From contig NZ_FOBL01000002.1 of NCBI RefSeq assembly GCF_900109825.1, positions 1-64,000 on the forward strand: 64,000 bases of DNA. Direction: 5' to 3'. Shown here piece after piece: positions 1-60,575 of the stretch (positions are counted from its first letter, which is position 1; each line of letters begins with the position of its first letter). Below the pieces are notes generated by a model that was not told the origin of the DNA, ran no database searches, and was given only the letters and a program-made list of their open reading frames with translations. A program made the position numbers and the translations under genes. This stretch comes from Alkalibacterium putridalgicola (GTDB lineage: Bacteria > Bacillota > Bacilli > Lactobacillales > Carnobacteriaceae_A).

Positions 1-258
1 CTGTGAGAGCAGCGAGCACGACATTCTATACAAAAAAATGACGGCTCAGCGGTAAGGTATGCCGCGAGTACGACATATTGGTCAAGAAACTGTACGCTCA
101 TCGAGCAGTGGACCGGTGAGTACGACATTCTGGAGGAAAAAGTGTTCACTCATCGATTTCGTGAGCTCCGAGTGCGACATTCAGTCCAATATAGTGTCGG
201 CTCACAATATATCAGGCTGACGAGTGAACAGCTGACCCAACTCAGCATATCTCAGAAA
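1..258. repeat. 52-bp-pitch dyad array, GAGTACGAC family
   Basis: Five degenerate units begin with GAG(T/C)(A/G)CGACATTC-like sequence at 14, 66, 118, 170 and 222, exactly 52 bp apart. The last is reduced to GAGTGAAC. Each is followed about 30 bp on by an inverted partner ending in CTCA (44, 96, 148, 200). The array may continue to the left of the window. The 52-bp pitch is not a multiple of three, so the repeats are not coding. Only the dyad ends are conserved; the sequence between them varies. Confidence 0.85.
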
Positions 259-5035: not shown

Positions 5036-5238
5036 ATATATATATACCTCATTTATAAAAATTTTGTCCACTAATCATCTTACGGGTAAAGAAAGCTAAA
5101 GTCAATTTAAAAGAGAGAAATCTAAGAAAACAGACCTCATTTGAAGGGGATTTGGTATATTATTGACACAGCTGAGGCACCTGGTGGAGGAGGATGAATA
5201 CAGGTGAAGTCTGACAACAGTTATGAATCTGCTAAATG

Positions 5239-5392
5239 CAGTACAGCATTCCAAATTTTGTCTAAACTTAACAAAACGGCTGAAAAGTGAAGTATAGCGT
5301 TCCGAACCATGTCTGAACTTGACAAAACAGCCGTAAAATGCAGTACAGCGTTCCAAATTTTATTTGAACTTAACAAAGCGGTTTCCGAACTA
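5239..5392. repeat. 51-bp-pitch array, AGTACAGCGTTCC family
   Basis: Three units beginning AGTAYAGCRTTCC start at 5240, 5291 and 5342, 51 bp apart. Each contains a conserved AACTTAACAAA-like second half. The rest of the 5051-5567 interval holds a strong GGAGGAGG followed by a seven-codon frame near 5190, probably a remnant, and otherwise nothing I can interpret. Confidence 0.75.
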
Positions 5393-9516: not shown

Positions 9517-9619
9517 CACAAGTATACCGATATCAGATTATCTAGAAAACTACGAACAAAAAACAGATAACTCTATTCTTTTTTAATGATTCGGTAGATA
9601 GAAGGTTTATTTTCTCCCA

Positions 9620-9895
9620 AAGTGCCGAAGATACAGATGTTCGGCCAGTTGAGTCAGCCACTTTGATCCTAACTGCCGAAGTTAGGGCACCTTCGACACT
9701 TTCAAACTTTATTCAGGCAGCTAGTTACCGAATGGAGCCAAGTTCGGTAATTAGCTCACGATTCAACTTTTCAACCTACCGAACTCATATCAATTTCGAC
9801 ACTTAGGTGAAAACGTCAGCCTCCTACTTACCGAACTTTCCCATATTCGACACTTAGCGAAAAGGAAGAGACTTTAAAGTGTCGAACTGCCGCAT
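9620..9895. repeat. CCGAA/TTCGG dyad array, 51/52-bp alternation
   Basis: (C/T)CGAA cores begin at 9625, 9676, 9728, 9779, 9831 and 9882 (steps 51, 52, 51, 52, 51). Inverted TTCG cores follow 15 or 16 bp later in alternation. Flanks extend the dyads to forms such as CTACTTACCGAA and TTCGGTAATTAG or TTCGACACTTAG. No coding potential. This array occupies most of the gene-free interval 9271-10198. Confidence 0.9.
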
Positions 9896-35564: not shown

Positions 35565-35601
35565 AGAAAGCCTTCGACTCTGGTCGAAGGCTTCTTTTTT
35601 T
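35565..35601 (+). terminator. Terminator
   Basis: AAGCCTTCGAC/GTCGAAGGCTT with a 4-base loop and T-run. Confidence 0.9.
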
Positions 35602-35692: not shown

Positions 35693-35779
35693 GGCATATT
35701 AGAGAGCGGATTTGCGGTTTTTTCATACGGTTTGGCTTATTCAGATATGGAGGAGTAAAAATGTAGTCTAGAATTGGAG

Positions 35780-36092
35780 GGTTCGGTAAGTTAGATACGA
35801 CCTAAGCAATCAACTTGTCGAAGTTCACGTTATTCGGTAAGTAGCTGGTGGAACTGATGATCTAATTACCGAAGTAGGTGTGCCTTCGACACTTTGGAAT
35901 TAAATAATGCAACCTACTTACCGAATTGAAGCTTCTTCGGTAAGTAGATTGAGTTTACAAAATCCTAACTACCGAACCCTGCCTAACTTCGACATTTAGA
36001 AAGGAATCGAAACGACGTACTTACCGAAGTTATCCTAATTCAGTACTTAGGAAATGAGTAATTGATCCTACTTGTCGAACCTTGCCTCAACA
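35780..36092. repeat. CCGAA/TTCGG dyad array, 51/52-bp alternation
   Basis: CGAA-type cores start at 35818, 35869, 35921, 35972, 36024 and 36075 (steps 51, 52, 51, 52, 51). TTCG-type cores lie at 35782, 35833, 35885, 35936, 35988 and 36039 (steps 51, 52, 51, 52, 51). Arms vary among forms such as TTCGGTAAGTAG, TTCGACACTT and CTAACTACCGAA. The remainder of 35602-36206 holds the two hairpins and the promoter of the NERD gene. Confidence 0.92.
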
Positions 36093-36206
36093 AACAACTA
36101 TAGTCAGTAAAGTGATCAGTATTTAAAATATCTAACCGATATTCTGAATAATTTTCATGATTATTTAATTTATTTGACAATATCTATAGTACGGGAGGGA
36201 TGGAAA

Positions 36207-37118
36207 ATGTTACTAAAACAAAGAGAGAAGTCGAAAATTCATTTAGGTCTGCTTGCACTAGATAAACGAATGGTGCTGGAGGATACCGATCGCAATTACT
36301 TGTTAAATCTTGAAAGAGGTTATAAGGGAGAAGAATTGTTTGACGACTATGTCAAACAATATCTGACTAAGGAAGTTATTGTATTAAATGATTTGCTGCT
36401 CACCAGCAGAGGAAGTTCGTTCCAGGTGGACAGTGTGATCATCACCTCGGATACACTCTATATGTATGAAATAAAGAACTATAAAGGAAATTACCAGATG
36501 AATGCAGGACAAATAGTGACGCTCACTGGTCAAGAGATCAATAACCCGGTGAATCAAATCAACCGGGCAAAAACATTAATGAAACAGATGGTGAAAGATT
36601 TTGGGTATGGAATAAAAGTGGATGCTTCAGTGATATTCGTGAATCCGACTTTTTATTTATATGACGCTAAAACGACCGTCTCTTTTATCTATCCTAACCA
36701 GATCGAGAAACACTTTAATGATATGAACAACCGCCTGACTCCATTAACAAAAGAGCAGCAATATTTGGCACAAAAGCTGATACAGGAAAATAGAGAGTCG
36801 GTACCCTATCAGAAAGAACTGCCGGATTTTGAATACAGTAAATTGAAGAAGACTATATACTGCAGTTTATGTGGAAAGGATCGTTTGAGGGTCACTCGAA
36901 AAAGAAGCTATTGTACAACTTGTCAACATCAGCAGGGACTGGAGAAGACGATACTAGAGCATATCGCAGAGTTCAAACTGTTGTTTCCTAATGAAAAAGT
37001 GACGGTACAGATCCTGTATGACTGGTGCGGTGGAAAAGCGAGTCCGCGTCGACTCAGAAAAGTCTGCGGCACACATTACAAGAAAATAGGAACAACAAGT
37101 AACAGTTACTACGATTAA
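36207..37118 (+). CDS. NERD-domain protein with C-terminal zinc ribbon
   Basis: A 303-residue protein. The nuclease-related domain spans about 35-150. Its candidate active site is Asp75 (FQVDSVI) and Glu88-x-Lys90 (YEIKNYKG), the D...ExK arrangement of restriction-type nucleases. A CSLC...CTTC zinc ribbon lies near 222-245, followed by a basic helical tail. NERD proteins are presumed DNA-processing enzymes of unknown role. The start at 36207 follows GGGAGGG. The gene sits between two copies of the CCGAA/TTCGG array, which may be chance. Confidence 0.8.
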   Translation: MLLKQREKSKIHLGLLALDKRMVLEDTDRNYLLNLERGYKGEELFDDYVKQYLTKEVIVLNDLLLTSRGSSFQVDSVIITSDTLYMYEIKNYKGNYQMNAGQIVTLTGQEINNPVNQINRAKTLMKQMVKDFGYGIKVDASVIFVNPTFYLYDAKTTVSFIYPNQIEKHFNDMNNRLTPLTKEQQYLAQKLIQENRESVPYQKELPDFEYSKLKKTIYCSLCGKDRLRVTRKRSYCTTCQHQQGLEKTILEHIAEFKLLFPNEKVTVQILYDWCGGKASPRRLRKVCGTHYKKIGTTSNSYYD

Positions 37119-37131
37119 ACTAAAATCTGAC

Positions 37132-37163
37132 AGCCTTCGACTTCACGGTCGAAGGCTTTTTTA
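37132..37163 (+). terminator. Terminator after NERD gene
   Basis: AGCCTTCGAC/GTCGAAGGCT stem with T-run; nearly the same stem as at 35565. Confidence 0.88.
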
Positions 37164-37252: not shown

Positions 37253-37277
37253 ATTGAAGTAAAGAGCGTTTAGTTGG

Positions 37278-37585
37278 TGGTTTGGTAAGTAGATTATGGA
37301 TACGCTCAGCTACATACCGAAGTTAGAGATATTCGGCAAGTTCATCCTAAACATACACAGCTAATTACCGAAATTTGTACACCTTCGTCAATTAGAAAAG
37401 AATAGTTGTATCCTAACTACCGAAGTAGCATTTATTCGGTAGTTAGGGTGCAAGTGGATGAATCTATCGACCGAACCTACGCTATATTCGTCACTTAAAA
37501 CTTGTTCACTGGAATGTACTTACCGAATTTGGCGATATTCGACAAGTAGGTTGCAAGTTGAGCATCCTAACTACCGAACACGTCC
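37278..37585. repeat. CCGAA/TTCGG dyad array, 51/52-bp alternation
   Basis: CCGAA cores start at 37317, 37368, 37420, 37471, 37523 and 37574 (steps 51, 52, 51, 52, 51). TTCG cores start at 37332, 37384, 37435, 37487 and 37538 (steps 52, 51, 52, 51). The within-dyad distance alternates 15 and 16. This is the clearest example of the 103-bp superperiod. After it come a C8 run near 37644 and the map promoter. Confidence 0.93.
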
Positions 37586-37779
37586 ATTATTAATAAAATT
37601 CAAAAATTAAAATGACGTCAGAGCCAAATAGCATCAAATCCACCCCCCCCGATTCGGTTCATACGCGCCGGCAGCGTATATGTTCCGCCTTAAAATCACT
37701 TCTTTCAAGAAAAAGGTTTTTAAAAGGCGGTGTTTTCGCTATAATAGTAAGGGAAATGAATAGTGAAGGAGAATGTTTT

Positions 37780-45092: not shown

Positions 45093-45209
45093 TTGTTTTC
45101 GAAGTGATTTGAAGATGAAGAGGGTGGCAGAATGTCACCCTCTTTTCCTAACCTAAAAGACTTTTCGTAAAAGGGCATCCCAAAATTCAGCAGTCACTAT
45201 TCATTTAGG

Positions 45210-45515
45210 ACTGGTTCGTCACTTAGGTGAACAAGCCACTCGCCTAAGTGACGAACAAGGCTAACTTCGGTAAGTACGTGCTTACGATCTAGCCCTAAGT
45301 GTCGAAGTCGGGGGAGGTTCGGTAATTAGGAATAAGCTAAAGCAGCCTACTTACCGAAGAAGCGCCAGTTCGGTAAGTAGCAGGACAACCTTATTTTCAA
45401 AGTGTCGAACACATGCCTGCTTCGGTAATTAGCGGCATGGCCGGGCCCGCTACTTACCGAATACAGTAAACTTCGACACGTTCGTTTAGAAATCCCGATC
45501 CTACTTACCGAACCA
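45210..45515. repeat. CCGAA/TTCGG dyad array, 51/52-bp alternation
   Basis: CGAA-type cores start at 45251, 45302, 45354, 45405, 45457 and 45508 (steps 51, 52, 51, 52, 51). TTCG cores start at 45215, 45266, 45318, 45369, 45421 and 45472 (steps 51, 52, 51, 52, 51). The unit at 45346-45379 forms a perfect 11-bp stem, TACTTACCGAA with its complement. The rest of 45093-45896 holds two hairpins and the DUF624 promoter. Confidence 0.93.
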
Positions 45516-45603
45516 CACCAAAAAAGCCGCACAGACCCTTAGCTGCGTCACGCCAAACACATTTTTAATCCGCAATCCTTCTTTAAAAGGACGTAATAAT
45601 GTG

Positions 45604-55800: not shown

Positions 55801-56058
55801 TTCACTCTATTCAGTGACATCGACGTAAGGTACATCAACACCCAGTCCAAAGCAACATACGGTAAAGACGGCGTGAAACCGAACGCCTACACTGTCACAC
55901 TGAAATCCGGTGAGACGGAAACCTTTGATGCTAAAGGCGTTAAAGGCGAATGGGCAGAAAAAATCAGAAACAAAGAAGTAAAAGAGATCACCGTCGCGCT
56001 GGACAGCGTGTCATCGAAAGAAGTGACAGAAGATCTGGCGGAAACTACTGAAGTTTAA
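52885..56058 (+). CDS. GH161-like beta-1,3-glucan phosphorylase
   Basis: A 1,057-residue phosphorylase related to GH94. The N-terminal segment IPLWAFYVNRGQGIASFG and the NKAYQY stretch resemble GH161 proteins. PGWNDAMNGLPG near 643-654 holds the candidate general acid Asp647 in the WND motif shared with GH94. It has no signal peptide. By family knowledge it would release glucose 1-phosphate from beta-1,3-gluco-oligosaccharides with phosphate. The start is GTG at 52885 behind GAAAGG. Family assignment is by recall of sequence pattern; a diverged GH94 is the alternative. Confidence 0.72.
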   Translation: MYKLLEDGRFKIEDFQQASPFSSFLPGISGTDGIPLWAFYVNRGQGIASFGVENKDNAMLEFLPANKAYQYVGTQGFRTFLKGTRSEETFQYEPFRAESDVITDEMIISDNHLELTHTQKHLGIEMTVVYYTLPHQAIPGLIREVTFKNLRDEPISIEGVDGLASMFPAHVDDSGYKGISNTFKSWFDASVKNDQFAYYFLRGSTADDAKVDQNDEGNFYATLMQTENKTQFLTPVFDRDVIFGNDLTLLNPKAFYGQDSLDTTKQIGTNKVSAAFTPFSFDLKGQGSVTLTSIFGQTTDREKAADFIDTHITAEKLADYKASAFELAKEFTSRVETKTANKAFDAYVKQNYLDNGIRGGFPVVFENDQAKQVFYLYSRKHGDLERDYNFFSISPEYYSQGNGNYRDMNQNRRLDTFFEPKVADRNLRQFMSLIQLDGYNPLSIKTVKYTLEDDTFDFAGFGFSSNQADVWRDMSKDGYTPGSLKKFVEQENITLTEPFEAFLTDVLSASKEALEAEHGEGFWSDHWTYNLDLIDSYLAIYPDKADDAYFGGGYRFFNSPASVRPLSEKLKQGKLGWRQYDAVHEDEEKMADHKNGEHMWIETDADGKPAETSLFSKLILLAANKVSTLAPFGLGVEMEGGKPGWNDAMNGLPGMFGAGTSELFELKRLVDRLSSIENKQSILLPAQASAFLLHLRDVLRDTDALDLAAWKSLTEVREDYRESIAGENTFKLVTCTEDVATEVIALFEEVMEKAIANVEALDTELIPTYIYFEATVENGEITEMQPHPVTPFLEGIVKKMKISGDTTEARDLYGKVKASDLYDQKLGMYKTSASIQDEPIELGRAKFFTPGWLENESVFLHMAYKYLLELVKVGLYDEFYEEIKTGLVVFNDPKVYGRSILENSSFIASSANPDESLHGKGFVARLSGSTVEFLNMWVEMFIGKTPFTMEEELTFKLDPVLPADFFSDGKIEFTLFSDIDVRYINTQSKATYGKDGVKPNAYTVTLKSGETETFDAKGVKGEWAEKIRNKEVKEITVALDSVSSKEVTEDLAETTEV

Positions 56059-56065
56059 TGCGGAT

Positions 56066-56155
56066 CTTAAGGAGTAGGGGCTCTAAAAGCTGAAACTCCT
56101 GAAGCAAAAACGTATACGTCAGGAGTTTAAACGAAAAAAGTCGTCACTCCTGACG
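56066..56155. repeat. 51-bp-pitch dyad pair, ACTCCTGA family
   Basis: ACTCCTGA occurs at 56095 and 56146, and its inverted form T(A/C)AGGAGT at 56068 and 56119, all 51 bp apart. Only two units, with a motif unlike the other arrays but the same pitch. Confidence 0.7.
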
Positions 56156-56201
56156 TTTATCTGAAATGCGAAAAATCAGTGGTCGAAGACACAAGAAGGA
56201 A

Positions 56202-60329: not shown

Positions 60330-60575
60330 GCGGGACAAGTGGCTAGTAATTTCTGGATCACTTGTCCCGCTGATCGGTTTACGGACCAAGTGGTGCTCAG
60401 AGACTGTCCCACTTGTACCGCAAATGGCTATTCGGAACAAGTTTCAATCATAAAGAGTCTCACTTGTTCCAAAAAGACCTTAATAAATTGAAAAAGCCGC
60501 CAGCGATGGCGGCTTTCCTTTTAATAGATAAAATTCGGTACATGTGAGCAAATAGTATACTGCCGCTTGTACCGA
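60330..60575. repeat. 51-bp-pitch dyad array, GGACAAGTGG/CCACTTGTCC family
   Basis: GGACAAG-type half-sites start at 60333, 60383, 60434 and 60537, and inverted CTTGTCC-type half-sites at 60361, 60412, 60463 and 60566. Steps are 50 or 51 bp, then 103 bp over one missing unit whose place is taken by a terminator hairpin (60491-60520). The phase is kept across the gap. Confidence 0.88.
60491..60520. terminator. Terminator-like hairpin inside the array
   Basis: AAAAAGCCGCC/GGCGGCTTT with loop AGCGAT, in the position where an array unit is expected. The stem is the same as in the terminator at 63457, with the loop inverted. Confidence 0.75.

Follow-up and report, generated by a model that had tools for sequence, protein, structure and literature searches.

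The window analysed here is a stretch of 64,000 nucleotides from Alkalibacterium putridalgicola (contig NZ_FOBL01000002.1, positions 1 to 64,000). It carries intergenic arrays of inverted half-sites with the core CCGAA, and two of these arrays, at 35.8 and 37.3 kb, flank a gene for a NERD-domain protein (36207..37118). Sequence comparison makes it probable that gene and arrays are the two parts of one chromosomal system, in which a NERD-domain protein is paired with arrays of its own putative binding sites. With more doubt than confidence we extend this to the class: NERD genes and their arrays may be a new chromosomal two-part element in Bacilli, in which a protein of nuclease fold would read and maintain, and perhaps extend, helically phased address arrays of its own. 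A private motif within a fixed geometry would belong to each paralog, and the 52-nt and the 20–21-nt satellite classes would be explained at once.

Geometry of the arrays and the NERD protein

The four arrays of an earlier note on this DNA, at about 9.6, 35.8, 37.3 and 45.2 kb, are all present upon recomputation. The array downstream of the NERD gene (37273..37586) has 12 half-sites, and arrays are found at the same place in the related genomes G003, G004 and G007. Its CCGAA cores start at 37317, 37368, 37420, 37471, 37523 and 37574, that is with steps of 51, 52, 51, 52 and 51. A TTCG core follows at +15 and +16 alternately, as had been stated, but only after the first five cores; the sixth is without TTCG. 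The array upstream of the gene (35774..36087) also has 12 half-sites. Upstream cores occur in G003, G004 (five exact cores) and G007 as well, and the stretch chosen upstream of the NERD gene in G004 gave no alignment. The other two arrays of the family lie away from the gene. The one at 45207..45520 again has 12 half-sites, and the one at 9590..9894, with orthologues in G004 (L381) and G003 (L379), begins with a TTCGG half-site at 9590 that is 1 bp out of register.

In the Alkalibacterium genome (G000) we count 21 array rows, which correspond to about 20 distinct arrays and have a common frame. From these rows, taken from the window and 17 further stretches of the genome (one of them, L048, without any), we derived a position weight matrix for the half-site, [CG][TA]AMNTRYCGAA, in which CGAA is almost invariant. 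With the first C taken as the position of a half-site, the outer gap (from a minus to a plus site) is 32 in 113 of 113 cases and the inner gap is 19 in 59 cases and 20 in 39. The two inner values alternate in 69 of 73 neighbouring pairs, the four exceptions being from L043 and L044. The sites behind these counts had been filtered for partners at permitted distances, and we therefore rescanned with the matrix without this filter. Inside the array spans 237 matches are in register and 2 are out, a count that stops at the outermost kept site, and the match density is 39.6 per kb inside the spans against 0.56 outside. Outside the spans so covered, the 9.6-kb array and L052 each have a terminal TTCGG that is shifted by 1 bp. 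The arrays are thus more regular than the earlier note described, but its "no exception" goes slightly too far. In effect the alternation is a near-constant step of 51.5 bp between dyad centres.

The arrays are mostly discrete modules of 12 half-sites rather than open-ended. The full module (outer gap 32, inner gap alternating between 19 and 20, span 289–291 bp) is present in 13 of the 21 rows. Four rows span 257 bp, with the terminal site 1 bp off in two and degraded in two, and two have 14 sites. The last two, L040 and L047, are cut off at contig ends and have sequence in common; they are probably one array. Outside G000 the 291-bp span is found in 8 of 22 chains of exact CGAA cores, the rest being mostly shorter and broken at changed cores, and one chain in G001 spans 360 bp. 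Run on the window, Tandem Repeats Finder (TRF) reported none of the four CGAA arrays. Rfam gave nothing in the window but one tRNA, and over six array loci a single snoRNA-like match below threshold. A reading frame of 130 aa over array L041 was judged spurious.

The gene between the two window arrays lies on the plus strand and codes for 303 aa from its ATG; a longer TTG frame starts at 36174. Both its Pfam score above the gathering cutoff (NERD, PF08378; E 3.7e-17, 63.3 bits against 22.1) and its PD-(D/E)XK residues D86, E99-x-K101 and Q128 (numbering of P0001) place the protein in the NERD family. A zinc ribbon (C230/C233/C247/C250) and a C-terminal winged-helix-like region are also present. 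All of 97 aligned NERD proteins have the catalytic D and E, 95 have K and Q, and every one of the four zinc cysteines is conserved in 95 to 97. The structural matches of the model, a list that is no evidence for the absence of any fold, include, at about Z 3, DNA-binding domains of the PhoB and PhoP type. These domains are winged helices, and the match of the C-terminal part may be read as a hint only. A sequence search of the PDB gave no credible match.

NERD genes, array periods and array motifs

NERD relatives are present in 30 of 60 related genomes and, at E 1e-20, in 56 of 299 genomes of the class, often as several paralogs (lower bounds for the class, with at most seven candidates scored per genome). 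We analysed 101 genes from the relatives, leaving out fragments, copies at contig ends and most copies with in-frame stops, and 28 class loci, one per genome, which are 30 minus two genomes already used (L279, L280). L121 and L205 are apparently the same locus of one genome and not independent; only L205 was counted. Within 900 bp of the gene a periodic signal (at least 10 6-mer pairs) is seen for 104 of the 129 genes, downstream for 78 and upstream for 36, some having both. At a count of at least 15 the class-wide loci are positive downstream in 24 of 28 cases and upstream in 4 of 28, whereas 5 of the 68 windows taken from 17 control stretches are. Four of these five control windows lie in one stretch (L353) with a strong 66–67-bp period, probably an array of clustered regularly interspaced short palindromic repeats (CRISPR). 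The best distance falls within 50–53 or 101–106 bp in 77 of 101 NERD flanks and in 16 of 62 other windows (8 strong), which themselves contain dispersed arrays; including loci chosen for their arrays the latter figure is 57 of 146 (38 strong). This test counted words from N runs (L231, L238, L241, L263, L273), which are excluded from the 104 of 129 and from the stricter of the two permutation tests given below.

The pairing is also seen in Texcoconibacillus, where a 52-bp array (L098) follows a NERD homologue of 36% identity with a similar C-terminal end. Among the matches listed in a pattern scan of genomes, CGAA-core arrays, mostly with 52-bp steps, occur in many Bacillaceae; the three inspected consist of near-identical tandem 52-mers. 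A detectable NERD gene is present in 2 of the 110 array-pattern stretches among the matches listed, which is what one would expect of a single gene for many dispersed arrays. Three viral contigs (L171–L173) have one match each to the CGAA array pattern, which may be chance.

The periods beside NERD genes are 41–42, 51–53, 63, 81–83 and 102–106 bp, with single loci at 92 and 117 bp, and their best common quantum is 10.35 bp (R 0.89). Arrays of 41 or 82 bp, in which each unit is shorter by one helical turn than in the 52-bp class, accompany divergent NERD genes (L294, L295, L297, L298, L196, L268–L270, L272–L274). In addition, a direct array of 28 copies of 21 bp lies beside the NERD gene of L308, and mixed 21- and 61-bp steps are found beside those of L303 and L305. 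The 21-bp steps match the second constant size class that has been published for satellites (see below), and suggest that the 20–21-nt class has the same partner family.

We then compared the arrays with a tree of 97 of the 101 NERD genes, the four under 270 aa being omitted. Judged by eye, array period and motif appear to follow the tree. The clade of the window protein (window, L176, L177, L178, L205) has throughout a 103-bp period and a CCGAA-type core with varying flanking letters (ACCGAA, GCCGAA, TCCGAA), and the word ACAAGT is common to six NERDs from two families that are near each other in the tree. For 35 close non-syntenic pairs (NERD distance below 1.0; only pairs whose flanks do not align and word sets of at least 3 were used) the mean sharing of array words is 0.106 against 0.039 after permutation, and 4 of 2000 permutations reach the observed value. 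In a looser version none of 2000 permutations reached the observed value; as a single simple word was all that its top pair (L265, L266) had in common, we prefer the stricter repeat. At the FGGY-kinase locus the array of G006 shares 26 words with its own NERD locus L235, and that of G001 shares 4 and 3 words with its own NERD loci L247 and L252. Two further arrays of the window, with the motifs ACAAGTG and CGACATTC, point to particular NERD groups.

The distribution of the CGAA pattern over the 60 relatives is in keeping with this. The five genomes carrying a NERD of the window clade have 28 to 75 matches each, while among the other 55 there are four matches in G010, three in G021 and none in the remaining 53. 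The matches in G010 have other flanking letters, and its three further NERD copies are closest to other clades. Those in G021, which belongs to another genus, lie in one array (G021:C1:527983-528155, L060) in a locus 82–84% identical to one in G000, possibly a horizontally acquired segment.

A putative mechanism and its alternatives

We suggest that the system could work in the following way. The C-terminal zinc-ribbon/winged-helix part of a NERD dimer would read an inverted pair of half-sites. Neighbouring dimers would then stack on one face of the DNA at integral turns, five in the case of the 51/52 family, into an ordered assembly, usually of six dimers in the window NERD clade. The same protein would bind the array beside its gene and the dispersed arrays, and DNA that is held by the assembly or close to it is the probable substrate of the conserved nuclease centre. 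A nucleoprotein hub that serves the host (nucleoid anchoring or a gene-boundary structure, with autoregulation at the gene) seems to us more likely than a purely selfish repeat. This is the least certain step and a guess.

Several observations weigh against a NERD protein that reads its own arrays. No array was called at a count of 10 for 25 of the 129 NERD genes, and 21 of the 35 close pairs have no array words in common. The 9.6- and 45.2-kb arrays each share words with 11 of 97 NERD loci, namely the five window-clade loci and others such as L234 and L209. The model of the whole protein is poor (pLDDT 50.6; residues about 220–314 are mostly at 70–84) and its structural matches are weak, with Z at most 5.5. 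A third gene could be the real reader of the arrays. Of the 76 downstream arrays 21 are preceded by a terminator-like hairpin, and such a hairpin is present in 31 of 300 random stretches (the counts for the 76 arrays, hairpins and distances alike, may include N-run artefacts, L238), and the other downstream arrays may be co-transcribed with NERD. Furthermore, the arms of the inner dyad covary at half-site position 6 and nominally at positions 1, 2, 4 and 5, which an RNA hairpin could produce.

The last points bear on an improbable alternative, a system of a CRISPR-like or omega-RNA-like kind, in which transcription of the arrays would yield hairpin or repeat RNAs as partners of the NERD nuclease. 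The 52-nt satellites of B. coagulans are described as transcribed (PMC8625621), the distance from the NERD stop codon to the start of the array is often short (median 63 bp), and three window arrays have folding z-scores of −5.95, −5.69 and −6.87. Any dyad array folds well, however, and the minimum free energy folds mix local hairpins with long-range pairs. Of 12 arrays with at least two mixed dyads, 7 have all mixed arms in the same orientation, a result that favours neither reading. An RNA system would leave both the quantisation in helical turns and the 21-bp direct repeats unexplained. We favour recognition of DNA because the spacing is quantised in turns and because covariation is absent at the polymorphic core positions 7 (0.44, against 0.51 in shuffles) and 8 (0.52, against 0.58). 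Ordinary tandem-repeat slippage next to NERD genes by accident is already disfavoured and has very little probability. Some NERD-side arrays are homogeneous and the three Bacillaceae arrays are near-identical tandem copies, as slippage would have it, but the Alkalibacterium arrays have diverged spacers, a common size of 12 sites and a near-exact register, and both the adjacency and the association of motif with NERD relatedness exceed the controls.

Repetitive extragenic palindromes (REP) and bacterial interspersed mosaic elements (BIME) are palindromic intergenic repeats found beside and away from the gene of their cognate RAYT transposase. A selfish pair of this type, in which the NERD nuclease copies or seeds its own arrays over the chromosome and the arrays have no role for the host, is unlikely in our view, though less so than an RNA system or slippage. 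The arrays flank their gene and have about 20 dispersed copies in G000, whole units are gained or lost, and the flanks of four G004 arrays (L374, L375, L376, L378) match none of the array loci compared from G000. An empty-site comparison for insertion boundaries was abandoned, the intervals being too different between species. All 19 G000 arrays for which both neighbours are seen lie downstream of at least one gene (14 tandem, 5 convergent, 0 divergent; two others are at contig ends), and NERD genes are multi-copy, some with in-frame stops, with conserved catalytic residues. Unlike in REP and RAYT pairs, the adjoining gene codes for a PD-(D/E)XK protein instead of a Y1/HUH transposase, no transposase was matched among the seven proteins scanned, and the spacing here is strictly helical. 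Against a selfish pair, NERD relatives were found neither in 72,556 plasmid and 50,697 phage records (query L098) nor in viral contigs (query A1).

Also against inert copies speaks the conservation of the dispersed arrays, several of which are at orthologous places in other species. In four G000/G004 pairs 30 of 504 positions are substituted in half-sites, 138 of 581 in spacers and 365 of 1861 in flanks. The choice of half-sites in G000 inflates their apparent conservation, and the pairs were selected with the alignments already known, so that some bias remains. Gap openings number 2 per 1085 array columns against 26 per 1861 flank columns; one of the two is a gap of 1 bp, the other corresponds to a complete 51-bp unit in L046. 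The dispersed orthologous arrays keep half-sites and spacing while the spacers drift as fast as the flanking DNA, which is not expected of copies without function. Divergence between the cores at constant spacing had been claimed from the window, together with selection on a geometry of about five helical turns; the latter is now well supported by these four pairs and the 10.35-bp quantum. Amplification in a fixed register, offered as the other possibility, also occurs: the comparison of orthologous arrays for unit gain and loss against substitutions, proposed at the same time, gave one whole 51-bp unit of difference between L046 and L377, and the Bacillaceae 52-mers are near-identical. Aligned with MAFFT, the downstream NERD-side arrays of four species contain one gap column. 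Global alignments with the more diverged G003 opened 16–25 gaps in each array, and that of the 45.2-kb locus with G004 opened 45. Partly from the MAFFT alignment we rejected these openings as real indels, and both sets were excluded from the four-pair substitution counts.

Known systems and further features of the window

Satellites of constant size, 51–53 nt and 20–21 nt, have been reported for Bacillus (Subirana & Messeguer 2021, PMC8161180), and the statement that no such bacterial element had been described is therefore wrong for the DNA part. They agree with the arrays described here in repeat size, variable sequence, non-coding nature and several families per genome, and short words are often conserved with their reverse in one repeat (PMC8161180). 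The array units of the Alkalibacterium genome fall within 51–53 nt and are constant within 1 nt, and the arrays are variable in sequence, non-coding and of several families. As one possibility the authors suggested a protein polymerising on the DNA (PMC8161180); the satellites are transcribed, nucleoid or RNA roles were proposed and a Cas-like partner was not evidenced (PMC8161180, PMC6749651, PMC8625621). The differences are that NERD genes are here linked to both size classes and that the Alkalibacterium arrays alternate between 51 and 52 bp and are too diverged for TRF. Neither NERD nor nuclease occurs as a word in the main text of any of the three papers, and full-text literature searches with NERD and array terms, mostly short of paper bodies, gave no NERD–array link. 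We therefore regard the DNA arrays as known in kind and the paired NERD–array system as new. In its interpretation the earlier note was right on geometry, but it missed the adjoining cognate NERD gene family and further 51–52-bp arrays of the window.

The constant-size satellites were previously without known function or partner, and NERD is a testable candidate for a protein partner. With many natural pairs of gene and motif the satellite puzzle becomes a problem of binding and genetics. The pairs may also indicate a role for zinc-ribbon-type NERD proteins, which would be a family of DNA-binding proteins whose motifs are readable from the arrays beside the genes. The importance of the NERD domain has, to the knowledge of the authors of PMC9040797, not been studied in any bacterial protein. 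SmdA of Staphylococcus aureus has partial similarity to NERD; it is a membrane protein of cell division that lacks several conserved NERD residues, and an array goes unmentioned in the parts of that paper covered (PMC9040797).

Nucleic-acid proteins beside repeat arrays are also known from non-CRISPR interspaced repeat systems, one of them with an AddB-like PD-(D/E)XK nuclease (Altae-Tran 2023, PMC10910872). The two systems described in the main text are not NERD, and NERD appears in a figure legend among putative auxiliary genes of CRISPR (PMC10910872). In the window the half-sites are inverted and degenerate, and the longest identical direct repeat of the 37.3-kb array is 15 nt in two copies, unlike CRISPR repeats. 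Pfam matched no cas family among the seven proteins near the four arrays, with no wider search made. For four proteins PADLOC and NCBIfam gave no full-length match to defence systems and only partial matches at the domain level: P0001 matches positions 43–156 of the 1403 of PglW, and its MAD6 match is below the cutoff. The plasmid centromere sopC adjoins the gene of its binding protein, as the arrays here adjoin NERD. In the F plasmid this centromere, parS_F/sopC, consists of twelve 43-bp tandem repeats with ParB-binding sites (PMC8465637). Here no gene for a ParA-like NTPase lies beside the window NERD gene, the arrays are dispersed over the chromosome and the protein has another fold. Plasmid iterons are direct repeats at a replication origin with a Rep gene; of these traits, direct repeats are present in the 21-bp arrays beside some NERD genes.

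The neighbours of the NERD gene code for a protein without significant Pfam match and an M24 peptidase. Terminator-like hairpins on the plus strand lie between the NERD stop codon and the downstream array (37132..37157) and between the preceding gene and the 35.8-kb array (35568..35593). Four extra arrays of about 51–52 bp with other motifs are present in the window, and two share words with NERD paralogs of the same genome. The 51-bp tandem array at 5234..5377 (2.8 copies) has no convincing match to NERD-linked families among the 97 loci compared. The short dyad array of about 51 bp with the motif ACTCCTGA (56040..56175, ends approximate) has 3 of 6 periodic words in common with the array beside the G004 NERD L210 and 2 with L183, and none with any G000 NERD paralog. 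The array of about 52 bp with the motif CGACATTC (1..230, ends approximate) shares six periodic words with L243, four with L201, a NERD paralog in G000, and three each with L209 and the unrelated L256. Finally, the array of about 51 bp with the motif ACAAGTG (60332..60475, ends approximate) shares at least two words with 6 of 97 NERD loci (L254, L249, L191, L212, L202, L204), all of which are close together in the NERD tree.
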